Below, one piece after another: positions 6,326-14,291 of a stretch of DNA of 48,545 bases (position 1 is the stretch's first letter; each line of letters starts with the position of its first letter). Below the pieces are notes generated by a model that searched no databases, was not told the DNA's origin, and saw only the letters and a program-made list of their open reading frames with translations. Both the position numbers and the translations under genes were made by a program. The stretch comes from Actinomycetota bacterium. Lineage in GTDB: Bacteria; Actinomycetota; Actinomycetes; Nanopelagicales; Nanopelagicaceae. Location: NCBI GenBank assembly GCA_009698445.1, contig WLQG01000006.1, positions 1 through 48,545 of the forward strand, in the 5' to 3' direction.

Positions 6326-8176
6326 TCAGGAAAACAACCCCTTCGCTGTCAAAGCTGCTTCAATTTTTGCATATAGGTCCATGGAAGTAGCAACACTGAT
6401 ATGGGAAGCGTCACGATAGGCCACTATTCCGTTGACGATTGCTGGGCAGTATGTAGTACATAGCCACGGTGTTGGGTCGATGAGTTGGAAACCTGGAAGT
6501 ACCTTGACCGGTGTTTTTTGTGTTGAGTCGCACGCATGAGAGTTCCTAGAAGCAAGACAACTCGGAATATCTCGCAGGGGATGTGGGGTATCACTAATAT
6601 AAATAATTCTTGAACTACTTCCATTCAATTCTCTTAAAAGTTTGACCTGCCCCGCTTTCCACCATTTATTGCGATCGGGATAGCCAGATGGTGGAGTGAA
6701 ATATTGAAAACTACTTGTTATGACAGCTACAGGATGTATTTTTTGAATTCGGGCGATTGAATTCTGGCGCCATTTCGCACAGTGCACCATTTTGAACGCG
6801 CCTTGATCTGGACGTAAAACTTCTACTGCGGGACATGCTGATTTTGTTAACGATACAAGTTTTAGGCCGTGCTGCAGTGCCAATTTCTCTAGAACAGGAA
6901 ACCATTGCGCCGCATGAGAATCTCCGTAGAGAACAATTGTTTGAGAAGATTTCGTATCACCATAGGTGCAATATCCGGATTTAGTTTCTCCATAATTTAC
7001 ATGGCAACCATCTCCATAAACTGCAGGCTTTTCCATGACCTTAACTAAGTCAAAGGTGTAACTTTTATCTCCACGAGTAGAAATCATTGAAGAAGCCGAA
7101 GATGCAATTGCGATTCCGGCAAGTAGTGAAGCGACAGTTGTGAAAACGGCGCCTGTGTAAACAACCTTAATTGACAATTTTTTGTGGCGAATCGGTTCTT
7201 CAATGTACTTGCTCGTAAAATGGGCCAAAATGATCGTTAATAGAATGCAGAGTCCACGTTCATACAATCTGAGTGGTCGACCTAATGCCGTGCTTGGCAA
7301 AACCAGTGCAGGCCAGTGCCACAAATACAAAGGATATGAAATGCCTCCTAGCCACTGACTTACCCGAGAATTTGATAAGTGGTTGAAAATAGGCGGCCAA
7401 TACGAAATGGTTGCTATGAGTATCGCTGTTGCCAATACTGGTAACAAAGCATTTTTACCCGGGAATGCAGTGTTCTCATCAAAATTGAGTGAAGAGAATG
7501 CGATACCGATAAATGCTATCCACGGTAAAACGCGAATTCTTATTCGTTGTTGTGGAATGAAAAGCAGCAAAGCTCCGAAACCTAATTCCCAGGCGCGAGT
7601 AGGTAATGAATAGAACGCCCAGATGGGTGCTGCTTGAGTCAAATACATGGAGAAAAGTAATGACAGGAAAGTGGTGATTGAAATACCAAGCAGAACTATT
7701 TTCTTACCATACTTGGCCAGTACAAGAATGAAAACAGGCCAAATTAGGTAGAACTGTTCTTCTACGGCCAATGACCAGTAGTGAATGAATGGTGAAGGAG
7801 TTGCATTTAAGTTCTGATAATCGTTTTGCCACCAAGCAAATAGATAGTTAGAGATATAGGTAGCCGCAGCGAAAAGATCTCTTCCTAAAGAATCTCGATT
7901 AATTGCAGGCAATAACAACCAACCCAAAATTGCAGTAATGAATAGAACAAAAACAGATGTCGGCAACAGCCGTTTGATTCGTCGCTGATAGAAGCTCTTT
8001 AGGTCCAGCCGTCCTGTCTTTTCAATCTCTCGTAAAATAAGGCCGGTAATGAGATAACCTGAAATTACATAGAAAATATCGACGCCGATAAATCCACCAG
8101 GTACCAAACGGGCATGAAAGAAGGTGACCAGAATTGCCGCGAGGGCACGGAGTCCTTGAATTTGTGGAATTCGCAC
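6326..8176 (-). CDS. OafA/YrhL-type membrane acyltransferase with C-terminal SGNH domain
   Basis: A 616-residue protein. The first ~340 residues form an acyltransferase-3 membrane domain with about ten helices and the catalytic histidine H21 in the FFHARLVPGGFIGVDIFYVI region. After a linker, residues ~385-616 form an SGNH domain with GDSH (418-421, nucleophile S420) and the D589/H592 pair in DASH. Such proteins O-acylate cell-surface glycans, passing the acyl group from the membrane domain to the external SGNH domain. It starts with GTG 3 nt after the apt stop, so it is coupled to apt. No glycan-synthesis genes are nearby, so the acceptor is unknown. Confidence 0.88.
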   Translation of the reverse strand: MRIPQIQGLRALAAILVTFFHARLVPGGFIGVDIFYVISGYLITGLILREIEKTGRLDLKSFYQRRIKRLLPTSVFVLFITAILGWLLLPAINRDSLGRDLFAAATYISNYLFAWWQNDYQNLNATPSPFIHYWSLAVEEQFYLIWPVFILVLAKYGKKIVLLGISITTFLSLLFSMYLTQAAPIWAFYSLPTRAWELGFGALLLFIPQQRIRIRVLPWIAFIGIAFSSLNFDENTAFPGKNALLPVLATAILIATISYWPPIFNHLSNSRVSQWLGGISYPLYLWHWPALVLPSTALGRPLRLYERGLCILLTIILAHFTSKYIEEPIRHKKLSIKVVYTGAVFTTVASLLAGIAIASSASSMISTRGDKSYTFDLVKVMEKPAVYGDGCHVNYGETKSGYCTYGDTKSSQTIVLYGDSHAAQWFPVLEKLALQHGLKLVSLTKSACPAVEVLRPDQGAFKMVHCAKWRQNSIARIQKIHPVAVITSSFQYFTPPSGYPDRNKWWKAGQVKLLRELNGSSSRIIYISDTPHPLRDIPSCLASRNSHACDSTQKTPVKVLPGFQLIDPTPWLCTTYCPAIVNGIVAYRDASHISVATSMDLYAKIEAALTAKGLFS

Positions 8177-8726: not shown

Positions 8727-8810
8727 TGTCCGAGAGGGGACTTGAACCCCTAATCCCTTACGGGAACTAACACCTCAAGCTAGCGCGTCTGCCAATTCCG
8801 CCACCCGGAC
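8727..8810 (-). tRNA. tRNA-Leu (anticodon GAG)
   Basis: The - strand begins GTCCGGG, which pairs with CTCGGAC at the 3' end to make the acceptor stem, followed by discriminator A. The D-arm region contains GGCAGACGC, the anticodon loop is CTTGAGG (anticodon GAG), a class-II long variable arm (TTCCCGTAAGGGA) is present and the T-loop is GGTTCAAGTCC. Length is 84 nt without an encoded CCA end, as usual in actinobacteria. A plausible -10 (TATCCT) lies about 15 nt upstream. Confidence 0.96.
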
Positions 8811-11159: not shown

Positions 11160-11831
11160 ATGCATTTAGTTTTGATTCGACATGCCCATTCACAAGCCAA
11201 CGCTAAAGGCATTCTCTCTGGCCGCTTGCCTAATGTGAAGCTTTCGGAAAAGGGCGTCGAACAATCTCTTCAACTTGCTAAGCGTCTGGGAACTTTTCCT
11301 GTTAAGCAACTGCGGGTAAGTCCCATGGGACGATGCCAGGAAACAATTGCGCCTTGGCTAAAAATGGCGAACTTGTCTTCAAAAAATTCTTTTATAATCG
11401 ATGAAAATCTTAATGAAGTGGACTATGGAAGTTGGAGCGGCAAAAAACTAGCTGCACTATCCACCCACAAATTATGGAAAACTGTGCAAAATAACCCCAG
11501 CGCAATGTATTTTCCTTCAGGCGAAGGCTTGGCGCACATGCAACAACGCGCTATGTCCAGTGTGCACGACTCAGTTTCTTCAAAAGGCAAAGGTGCCGCG
11601 GTACTTGTTAGTCACGGTGACGTAATTAAGGCAATCGTCGCCAGTGCACTTGGCATGCATCTTGATGATTTTCAACGTATTGTCATTGATCCAGCGTCGG
11701 TTACGATCTTGGATTATTCATCGAACAAAGCTCGCATATTGATGCTCAATGATACTCGTACTGAACTAAGTGAGATTTTGAAAGCTCCGAATCGTCGAAA
11801 GAATTTGCTGGGCGGTGGATCAGGTAAATGA
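11160..11831 (+). CDS. MSMEG_4193-type histidine phosphatase/phosphomutase-like protein
   Basis: A 223-residue member of the phosphoglycerate-mutase-like histidine phosphatase superfamily. It opens MHLVLIRHAH, with the catalytic histidine H8 in the RHA version of the usual RHG motif. The second conserved histidine lies in AVLVSHGDVIKAI. Members beside mshC in actinobacteria (Rv2135c, MSMEG_4193) have no agreed substrate. Its stop overlaps the DUF3090 start by 4 nt (ATGA), so the two are translationally coupled. It heads a three-gene unit followed by mshC. Confidence 0.85.
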   Translation: MHLVLIRHAHSQANAKGILSGRLPNVKLSEKGVEQSLQLAKRLGTFPVKQLRVSPMGRCQETIAPWLKMANLSSKNSFIIDENLNEVDYGSWSGKKLAALSTHKLWKTVQNNPSAMYFPSGEGLAHMQQRAMSSVHDSVSSKGKGAAVLVSHGDVIKAIVASALGMHLDDFQRIVIDPASVTILDYSSNKARILMLNDTRTELSEILKAPNRRKNLLGGGSGK

Positions 11832-12337
11832 CATATGAATTTAGTGACGTCGATAGATTCATATGTGGCACGGTAGGTGAACCAGGTGAACGTGAGTTCT
11901 ATTTACAAATACGCGCTGCAAATCGTCTTCTCAGCGCAACGCTTGAAAAATCGCAAGCAGCGACGTTAGCTCAAAGGCTAGAGATTTTGTTGCGGCAAAT
12001 AGTTAAAGAGGACATCGCGACAGTTATAGAACGTAGCGTCCGCGATGATGCACCATTGGAGCAACCTATAGATGCAGATTTCACGGTTGGTGCCATATCG
12101 ATCGCCTTTGATGAATCCACAAAGAAAGTCTGTCTAGAACTCTTTGCAATAAAAGAAATAGAACTGGAAGAAGATGAAGCTGAGATTACGATGTATCTAG
12201 CCCTCAGTCAGGCCAAAGCATTTGTAACTAGGACTCTGGCTGTTGTAAATGCTGGTCGACTTCCTTGTCCATTCTGCGCAATCCCAATCGATCCGCGTGG
12301 ACATCTGTGTCCAAGGGCAAATGGCTACAGACGCTAA
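11828..12337 (+). CDS. DUF3090 protein with C-terminal cysteine cluster
   Basis: A 169-residue soluble protein of unknown function found almost only in actinobacteria. The N-terminus has the family pattern DRFICGTVGEPGEREFYLQI. The last 23 residues hold CPFC...GHLCPRANGYRR, whose three cysteines and histidine look like a small zinc site. The gene overlaps the upstream phosphomutase-like gene by 4 nt and the downstream kinase-like gene by 17 nt. The fixed order mutase-DUF3090-SCO1664 in other actinobacteria suggests the three products work together. Confidence 0.85.
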   Translation: MTYEFSDVDRFICGTVGEPGEREFYLQIRAANRLLSATLEKSQAATLAQRLEILLRQIVKEDIATVIERSVRDDAPLEQPIDADFTVGAISIAFDESTKKVCLELFAIKEIELEEDEAEITMYLALSQAKAFVTRTLAVVNAGRLPCPFCAIPIDPRGHLCPRANGYRR

Positions 12338-13025
12338 TAAATCCATACTCATGTATGGAGATTTAACCGTTACGGGTCGACTAGTTGATGCGTCAAATGC
12401 AACTTTGTATGCAACCGTGGAGTTCGAATCTAAAAAATTGACCTGCATCTACAAACCAGTTGCGGGGGAGCGTCCTTTGTGGGACTTCCCAGATGGAACT
12501 CTTGCCGATCGCGAATACGCGGCATATTTAGTAAGTGATTTTTTGGGCTTAGACATCGTTCCACTAACTATCTTGCGCGATGGTCCCTATGGTCCTGGAA
12601 TGGTTCAAGAATGGATTGAGATCGATGAGTCGATAGATTTAGCGGAATATTTTTCACTAGATGTTCCTAACTTAAGATCGATGGCATTTTTTGACGCCAT
12701 CATCAATAATACGGATCGAAAAATTGGCCATCTTTTACCAACAGTTGATGGATTGCTCTATGGATGTGACCACGGTGTGACATTCCACGAGGAAGATAAA
12801 TTGCGCACGGTGTTGTGGCAGTGGGCCGGCGATGATTTGAACGAGGCTGAACAAACCTCTTTATCCCTTTTGCACAGTTCTATTGGTCAATCGTTGGACT
12901 TATCTTCCTACATTACTGCGATAGAAATAGACGCACTTAGTGCACGGATTGAAGAGCTTTTGAAAACCAAAAAGATGCCAGTTCCAAATCCAGATTGGCC
13001 AGCAGTCCCATGGCCAGCGTTCTAG
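12321..13025 (+). CDS. SCO1664 family kinase-like protein
   Basis: A 234-residue protein with features of the PI3/PI4-kinase or HipA-like fold. K45 in CIYKP could bind ATP phosphate, NNTDR (129-133) resembles a catalytic loop and GCDHG (148-152) a metal-binding motif. The family is uncharacterised, so whether it phosphorylates a protein, lipid or small molecule is unknown. I chose ATG 12321, which overlaps the DUF3090 gene by 17 nt; ATG 12351 is a shorter option. It lies 24 bp before mshC, which appears to have its own promoter. Confidence 0.82.
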   Translation: MATDANKSILMYGDLTVTGRLVDASNATLYATVEFESKKLTCIYKPVAGERPLWDFPDGTLADREYAAYLVSDFLGLDIVPLTILRDGPYGPGMVQEWIEIDESIDLAEYFSLDVPNLRSMAFFDAIINNTDRKIGHLLPTVDGLLYGCDHGVTFHEEDKLRTVLWQWAGDDLNEAEQTSLSLLHSSIGQSLDLSSYITAIEIDALSARIEELLKTKKMPVPNPDWPAVPWPAF

Positions 13026-13049: not shown

Positions 13050-14291
13050 ATGAAATCATGGCCAGATGTAGTAATTCCTGTCTTGGATTTAGACGGGCAC
13101 ATGCCAACGCTTTCTCTTACTAACTCCAAAACAAGTCGCAAGGAAGAAGTTGTCTCAAGAGACACGTACCGAATGTACGTATGTGGAATCACGCCCTACG
13201 ACGCAACGCATCTTGGTCATGCCGCAACGTATTTAACTTTTGATTTAATTAATCGCTATCTGCGCGCAACTGGCAGCAGCGTGAAATATGTTCAGAACAT
13301 TACCGATATTGATGACCCATTACTTGAACGGGCGACGCGCGATAATGTTGACTGGCAAAGTTTGGCCACATCTCAGATTGATCTTTTTAGAGCAGACATG
13401 GTTAATCTGCGGGTAATTCCGCCGAATCACTACATAGGGGCAGTCGAAGCCATTGATCTAGTAACTGAGTCCATTTCTTCCCTTGATGAATCTGGAACGA
13501 TATATCCAATTGGAGATGATTTATATTTCAAAAACTATTCATCCCCGGAATTTGGAAAACTCTCACACTTAAGTAAAGACGAAATGGCCGCGATATTTTC
13601 AGAGCGAGGCGGTAATCCGACATTGCAAGGAAAGGTTGACCCACTCGATTGCTTAGTATGGATGGCTCAGCGCCCTAACGAACCTGGCTGGCCTTCAGTG
13701 CATGGAACTGGAAGGCCTGGTTGGCATATTGAATGCACGGCAATTGCGCTCAAGTATTTAGAACCAGATGATACACAAGAGACAAGTATCGATATCCAAG
13801 GTGGCGGCAGTGATTTAATTTTTCCTCACCATGAAATGTGTGCATCACAAGGTCGAGTTCTTACGGGTAAAGAGTTGGCTGCAACGTATGTGCACAGTGC
13901 CATGATCGGCTTAGATGGTGAAAAGATGAGTAAGAGCAAGGGCAATTTGGTGTTTGTATCGAAATTGATCAATGAAGGTGTTGATCCGATGGTTATTCGC
14001 TTCGCGTTAATTTCACAGCACTATCGTACCGACCGCATGTGGAGCGATGAGGTTCTCACTGACGCAATCAAACGTGTTGCAAGAATTCGTCAAGCCTTTT
14101 CTTTGCAAAATGTCGGACAAACACAGAATGTAATTTCTACCGTTATAACTGCTTTGAGCCAAGATTTAGATACGCCGGCTGCCATTGCGGCGCTGGAGGA
14201 TTGGGCAGAGCTTTCAATTCAAGGGGCCAACGGTGGGGATTCGAAAGCATTGGCAACCACATTGGATGCGTTGCTGGGATTAGATTTTTAG
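13050..14291 (+). CDS. mshC: Cysteine-1-D-myo-inosityl 2-amino-2-deoxy-alpha-D-glucopyranoside ligase
   Basis: A 413-residue mycothiol-synthesis enzyme that ligates cysteine to GlcN-inositol using ATP. It is derived from cysteinyl-tRNA synthetase: zinc cysteine C45 in YVCGITPYDATHLGHA, HIGH-like HLGH at 54-57, further ligands C229 (HIECTA) and the HHEMC region near 260-264, and KMSKS at 292-296. The length (about 410) and the MshC-type PYDATHLGHA wording separate it from true CysRS, which has a longer tRNA-binding tail. Its presence marks the host as an actinobacterium using mycothiol. The TAG stop interlocks with the convergent PAC2 gene. Confidence 0.94.
   Translation: MKSWPDVVIPVLDLDGHMPTLSLTNSKTSRKEEVVSRDTYRMYVCGITPYDATHLGHAATYLTFDLINRYLRATGSSVKYVQNITDIDDPLLERATRDNVDWQSLATSQIDLFRADMVNLRVIPPNHYIGAVEAIDLVTESISSLDESGTIYPIGDDLYFKNYSSPEFGKLSHLSKDEMAAIFSERGGNPTLQGKVDPLDCLVWMAQRPNEPGWPSVHGTGRPGWHIECTAIALKYLEPDDTQETSIDIQGGGSDLIFPHHEMCASQGRVLTGKELAATYVHSAMIGLDGEKMSKSKGNLVFVSKLINEGVDPMVIRFALISQHYRTDRMWSDEVLTDAIKRVARIRQAFSLQNVGQTQNVISTVITALSQDLDTPAAIAALEDWAELSIQGANGGDSKALATTLDALLGLDF

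Follow-up and report, generated by a model that had tools for sequence, protein, structure and literature searches.

A conserved phosphatase, DUF3090 and kinase-like gene unit beside mshC in an actinobacterial genome, and the phosphorylation cycle it may encode

Described families and published links

The closest described relatives of the locus studied here are the families TIGR03848, TIGR03847 and TIGR03843, whose TIGRFAM notes presumably describe the trio as an actinobacterial system of three genes, one of them for a PI-kinase-like protein. All three proteins of our locus score over the curated cut-offs of these families and are ordinary members of them. For the family of the first protein, the Mycobacterium tuberculosis homologue Rv2135c has been reported to be a tetramer with acid phosphatase rather than mutase activity, which is modest on several phosphates and absent on glucose-6-phosphate, and its substrate table has no entry for GlcNAc-Ins-P (PMC3866925). 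By this published assay of the homologue, the protein that the original prediction had headed as a phosphomutase is probably a phosphatase. The third family is represented by SCO1664, which according to Chandra and Chater is invariably in close linkage with mycothiol genes (PMC4255298), and DUF3090, the second protein, has been termed putative metal-binding (PMC9425974).

The trio of M. tuberculosis is probably Rv2133c-Rv2135c, the phosphatase Rv2135c being in print and the other two following from gene order; the same gene order, together with the name of the MSMEG_4193 family, leads us to infer that Rv2134c and MSMEG_4192 are the DUF3090 gene. Among mutants whose sensitivity to sub-MIC rifampicin is altered, BCG Rv2134c is tabulated with -1.42 (PMC11329110); in M. 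smegmatis, MSMEG_4192 is recorded as overrepresented with dibucaine (1.49; PMC10127668) and appears in a ClpC1 interactome table (PMC10433963). In the literature searched, which covered few subscription papers, mentions of the kinase or DUF3090 were limited to table entries and short remarks of this kind; functional work on either protein, and papers on these TIGRFAM numbers, were not found. The trio had been put forward as an undescribed system; this holds only in part, as the families are catalogued and the SCO1664-mycothiol linkage is published (PMC4255298). To this record the present analysis, as far as the literature searched shows, adds a predicted whole-length PI4KII/FAM20 fold of the kinase and a model-based, PUR-like reading of DUF3090, a phylum-wide profile that parts the trio from mycothiol yet includes repeated joint absence, a phosphatase-kinase pair that lacks DUF3090, and a paralogue of DUF3090 downstream of hemH.

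The locus and its three predicted proteins

The window, that is, the whole stretch of DNA analysed (48,545 nt, contig WLQG01000006.1), comes from an actinobacterial genome of 1.34 Mb that is 84.7% complete. Its nearest named relative at the locus is a Candidatus Planktophila MAG, with 67% identity of the kinase. The features of the locus are as follows.

11160..11831, + strand: TIGR03848 histidine phosphatase (MSMEG_4193 family), 223 aa; from the ORF, NCBIfam, Pfam and the conserved catalytic R7, H8, R58, E86 and H152
11178..11186, + strand: phosphatase motif RHA; from an alignment of 136 rows
11828..11831, + strand: 4-nt stop/start overlap of phosphatase and DUF3090; from coordinates
11828..12337, + strand: DUF3090 / TIGR03847, 169 aa, with a predicted PUR-like domain and a C-terminal CxxC...HxC; from the ORF, profiles and model
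12266..12310, + strand: putative zinc site C147-x2-C150...H159-x-C161 of DUF3090; from the alignment
12321..12337, + strand: 17-nt overlap of DUF3090 and kinase, provided the ATG at 12321 is used; from coordinates
12321..13025, + strand: SCO1664 family / TIGR03843, 234 aa, predicted minimal kinase of PI4KII/FAM20 fold; from the ORF, profiles and model
12714..12770, + strand: kinase catalytic core D132-R-K-x2-H137 ... D150-H-G; from the alignment
13050..14291, + strand: mshC, a neighbour judged to lie outside the unit; from the ORF and TIGR03447

The predicted reading frames and overlaps were found in place, although the 17-nt overlap depends on the choice of start, since a later kinase start at 12351 is available and the family profile match begins there. 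The mshC gene (TIGR03447, E 3.9e-162, over the curated NCBIfam cut-off) starts 24 nt past the kinase stop. Promoter-like sites were fewer than in shuffled sequences (3 versus a mean of 7.2) and gave nothing usable, and a tRNA gene at 8727-8810 on the minus strand was the sole Rfam match between positions 8000 and 18000. No gene fusions were seen in 142 regions (the window stretch and 141 loci); some of these regions repeat one genome, so that alignment rows are non-independent.

The window's kinase-like protein matched TIGR03843 with an E-value of 9.8e-88 and 293.7 bits (cut-off 172.4), and no Pfam family at E<=1. In VIA-align comparisons its model (pLDDT 92.2) matched PI4KII beta over 222 of 234 residues (Z 16.6, rmsd 3.8), followed by FAM20 (Z 14.3), CtkA (12.4), HipA (10.9) and then PI3K, Rio and others (8-9), and PI4KII was also the top Foldseek match (E 1.2e-7). 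By profile, the PDB returned FAM20A (E 0.022) and PI4K2B (E 0.23), which are weak matches, yet with the D-R motif in register; PF00454 was matched by 35 of 43 family members at E<=10 (best 1e-5), and the window's own protein did not match it. K45, E65, D132, R133, K134, H137 and D150 were invariant in 140 of 140 rows. The fold of the PI3/PI4-kinase superfamily, in the predicted model, and its catalytic residues are thus present, and the SCO1664-family protein would, as far as the model can be trusted, be a minimal ATP-dependent kinase. Its likeness to PI4KII and FAM20 lies in the near-whole-length fold match of the model, the D-R signature and the weak PF00454 matches of other family members, whereas it differs from them in having only 234 aa and in carrying His in place of the Asn that ends the D-R-x3-N motif of PI4KII.

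The bacterial kinases CtkA and HipA have related folds. The HipA fold match, together with a weak HipA_2 match in 15 of 43 kinase members (best E 0.0038), brings up the alternative that the kinase is the toxin of a toxin-antitoxin unit like that of HipA. Unlike such systems, the locus has no antitoxin-like helix-turn-helix partner (no such family at E<=1 in the window's two partner proteins), and its kinase is a conserved chromosomal gene, near-universal in the class (183/196) and normally one per genome. Plasmid and phage collections yielded three kinase records only, two of them chromosome-like in content or size and one unannotated, which were not accepted as mobile copies. We regard a toxin-antitoxin unit as extremely improbable.

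As for these records, NZ_LR134462.1 (L155) and NZ_LT559118.1 (L157) are labelled plasmid or bacteriophage; both labels look wrong, because the former carries, besides the trio, mshC, dapA and metH and the latter, which carries the kinase, has 11.85 Mb. MT835969.1 (L156) is an unannotated faecal 'bacteriophage' contig with the kinase.

The phosphatase matched TIGR03848 (E 9e-67, 224.5 bits versus a cut-off of 203.85) and PF00300 (E 6.6e-42). The branch-1 catalytic R-H, R, E and H were kept with at most one exception each among the 131-135 rows with letters per position, and the third letter of the RHA-type motif was G in 108, A in 24 and a gap in 4 of 136 rows. PF00300 and all catalytic residues are common to this protein and the branch-1 histidine phosphatases PspA, CobC and PhoE, and its relatives in the PDB are phosphoserine and alpha-ribazole phosphatases; it scores, however, below the cut-offs of those equivalogs and stands in a fixed operon with the kinase. 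In the alignments, key catalytic residues were kept across the families. A VGGG tail, present in 99 of 136 rows, was considered as a docking tail for DUF3090 and rejected, as it follows class and not the presence of DUF3090.

DUF3090 matched TIGR03847 (E 2.3e-51, 174 bits versus a cut-off of 117.25) and PF11290 (E 1e-49). C147 and C150 were conserved in 138 of 138 rows, H159 in 136 of 137 and C161 in 137 of 138, and this CxxC...HxC motif is a putative zinc-binding site. The model has a pLDDT of 85.8, which is low in the tail carrying that site. In VIA-align it matched PUR-alpha by fold alone (Z 9.6, rmsd 3.4, 114 residues), and then two functionally uncharacterised proteins from cyanobacteria (Z 6.9 and 6.6), MRP1/2 (6.2), which binds nucleic acids, and Whirly (6.1). 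PUR-alpha was also the best Foldseek match, with a probability of 0.99 and an E-value of 0.01. PUR and Whirly are nucleic-acid binders, and the fold is PC4-like (PMC7990775).

These matches would fit a nucleic-acid system, in which the PUR-like face of DUF3090 binds ssRNA or ssDNA and the kinase and phosphatase modify the RNA or a bound protein. Against it, the sequence search of 39 members at E<=10 listed 25 families, none of them PUR, with filters that drop most matches above 0.1; no PUR match was obtained in the PDB by profile, and all Foldseek matches had E-values above 0.001. The whole proteins are acidic (pI 4.3-5.2), although many of their bodies are neutral or basic once the acidic insert and tail are left out, and they differ from PUR-alpha, Whirly and MRP also by the extra CxxC...HxC tail. 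Such a system seems quite unlikely to us, and the more specific idea of a reversible phosphorylation of RNA, or of a ribonucleoprotein target, held by a PUR-like zinc protein and worked on by the histidine phosphatase and a minimal kinase of PI4KII fold, highly so; the PUR likeness, seen in a predicted model, is a lead. A PDB search with the single DUF3090 sequence gave nothing at E<=1, and MutS2, the best match of the profile against the PDB (E 0.17), was taken as chance.

A stand-alone DUF3090 paralogue was observed directly downstream of the ferrochelatase gene hemH in five f69 genomes and two Frankia (7 of 7 looked at; L132:5450-5956, L133:1713-2219, L150:4369-4875 and L158-L161). These paralogues form one clade (SH-aLRT 100) and keep the CxxC...HxC residues.

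Co-occurrence and relation to mycothiol genes

A draw of 197 Actinomycetota genomes was searched with the profile of each family. The kinase was found in 82 genomes, DUF3090 in 82 and both in 81, the trio genomes spanning 24 families (G165 left out). G165, the kinase-only genome, has a marginal match (E 9e-4), while the kinase of G163 cannot be seen, since its contig stops 5 nt beyond the DUF3090 match. The phosphatase preceded DUF3090 closely and on the same strand in all 81 genomes with both placed (in the 82nd, G150, DUF3090 lies at the contig start), and DUF3090 preceded the kinase in 78 of 81, the remaining three being two cases split over contigs and one gap of 991 nt. The grouping is not due to chance, and the three genes behave as one unit, not as independent genes, as had been proposed. 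No neighbour family besides the trio was clearly common to many lineages in 33 fetched regions; the widely shared neighbour clusters had no fixed place or direction and partly resembled shadow frames. One different arrangement was seen in G304 (L152:4396-6338), where the kinase lies on the other strand, directly behind and overlapping mshC, convergent with phosphatase-DUF3090.

In a second draw, taken within the window's class (196 genomes), the kinase was present in 183, DUF3090 in 184, both in 182 and neither in 11. Two of the three discordant genomes are explained by contig ends (G208 and G349), and the third, G258, has really lost the kinase and retains phosphatase-DUF3090-mshC. A Chloroflexi-labelled MAG (G199) has DUF3090 and the kinase and, as its best phosphatase match, a weak one of 82.9 bits; transfer or misbinning is likely, because its kinase groups among Frankiales in the tree. 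As G258 and G199 illustrate, phosphatase and kinase can each be missing. In the family of G038 the kinase was found in 114 of 121 genomes, being absent from six of seven g220 genomes and from the one g222 genome. The kinase is usually single-copy. Survival of the trio through genome reduction, as originally proposed, was borne out: kinase and DUF3090 were present in 18 of 18 genomes of the window's family that the class draw contained, of 1.2-2.2 Mb.

Retention in these reduced genomes would also be expected if kinase and phosphatase worked in housekeeping or repair, either in consecutive steps or on different damaged or stray metabolites, with DUF3090 as a structural partner. Rv2135c is a broad and slow acid phosphatase (PMC3866925), as repair enzymes may be. 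The tight retention and movement of the genes in the same order favours a direct functional link instead, and it fits opposing and consecutive steps alike. We consider the repair reading unlikely, if a serious contender.

Phosphatase and kinase were also found directly adjacent without DUF3090, in a second copy in G008 (L131:9392-10766) and in G467 (L145:4574-5868). The kinases of these two loci form one clade (SH-aLRT 96), parted from the class's trio kinases by a branch with a support of 99, and each keeps 43 of 45 conserved positions. Since they form a clade of their own apart from the class kinases, phosphatase and kinase seem to have been transferred together, apparently from a source outside the class. 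In two Frankia no DUF3090 lies between phosphatase and kinase, but one is present elsewhere in the genome; in the C. glutamicum control, the kinase and phosphatase profiles gave matches and the DUF3090 profile gave none. Because the pair also travels without DUF3090, phosphatase and kinase look like the core of the unit. The pairing of the two enzymes in the original prediction is thus backed by pairs that move together; that they oppose each other on a common target is a proposal. Residue W54 of the kinase was rejected as a DUF3090-linked signal: it differs in two kinases from loci that lack DUF3090, yet five rows with DUF3090 deviate there as well.

The original statement that the trio is conserved near mshC in actinobacteria holds for the window's class and not for the rest of the phylum. 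Among 80 named loci, which are mostly from the class, mshC lay within 500 nt after the kinase in 50 and further downstream in 17; 13 had no mshC downstream, six of these being short contigs. In the 197-genome draw, 42 genomes had MshC itself or an MshC-like protein scoring 360 bits or more, and 40 of them carried the trio, versus 42 of the 155 others; the 360-bit line was drawn after seeing the score gap from 368.7 to 344.8, and phylogeny confounds these counts. The 11 genomes of the class draw with neither kinase nor DUF3090 (f81, n=9; f75, n=1; f83, n=1) all had no MshC over the cut-off either, and their best TIGR03848 scores were at most 91.5 bits; where it was sought, MshC was over the cut-off in 21 of 22 class genomes with the whole or part of the trio, the exception being G349.

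These associations, and the retention of phosphatase and DUF3090 beside mshC in G258, fit a mycothiol operon whose phosphatase would be MshA2, acting after MshA and before MshB, and whose kinase would supply the inositol phosphate for MshA. We know of no gene identified for MshA2. Presence only where MshC is, as expected of a mycothiol gene, was not observed, since 42 of 82 trio genomes, in 10 families, show nothing MshC-like at 360 bits or above; f8, f13, f14 and f15 mostly have one CysS-like match. Outside the class, the MshC-like genes compared do not adjoin the trio (in G129, for instance, the trio is on contig C2 and the MshC-like gene on C5), and G039 has an MshC-like match of 368.7 bits and no trio. 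The pathway step itself has been named (PMC2628429, PMC9736012), but Rv2135c is inactive on glucose-6-phosphate and weak on other phosphates (PMC3866925), and the scheme leaves no role for DUF3090. It appears rather unlikely to us.

The trio-mshC association is therefore real but not obligatory: the trio adjoins mshC in Actinomycetia, with joint absence in three families, and is statistically tied to mycothiol within the class, but not across the phylum. The published word 'invariably' for the linkage of SCO1664 to mycothiol genes is unsupported by the phylum data. Because 42 trio genomes lack such a match, mshC is rejected, as a general rule, as a fourth member of the unit.

In G129, G016, G124, G099 and 20 other non-class genomes there is a second CysS-like protein, whose score against MshC (360-446 bits) stays below the cut-off; it is possibly an MshC-like ligase of other actinobacterial classes. 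For the inositol link, PF07994 matched 42 of 197 genomes, but it had no match in the C. glutamicum control or in most of the Actinomycetia drawn, for which reason we think that this profile misses the actinobacterial synthase type. It matched in f17 without the trio and in f15 and f28 with it.

The proposed cycle and its significance

Our preferred reading, to which we give a probability of about 0.5, is that the trio is a self-contained system in which kinase and phosphatase form an antagonistic cycle on a soluble target and DUF3090 is an accessory. The SCO1664-family kinase would phosphorylate this target, perhaps a small polyol, a sugar or a protein, at the expense of ATP, and the histidine phosphatase would remove that phosphate, the kinase product being its presumed natural substrate. 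DUF3090, with its PUR-like domain and conserved CxxC...HxC, may bind the target or tune the pair, and it can be lost while the kinase-phosphatase pair stays. It could equally be the substrate, and the coupling of the trio could reflect consecutive instead of opposing steps. Judging by the distribution, the unit would be older than its linkage to mshC and would have joined the mycothiol genes only in Actinomycetia; an ancient kinase-phosphatase cycle is the best reading.

The unit is highly conserved in Actinomycetia, a class that includes the mycobacteria, with the kinase in 183 of 196 genomes, and it has been retained in genomes of 1.2-2.2 Mb. If the mycothiol alternative were true, the MshA2 step would be identified. 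Taken together, the predicted fold, the well-kept active sites and the phosphatase-kinase pairs lacking DUF3090 lead to a direct question, namely whether the phosphatase erases the mark of the kinase.
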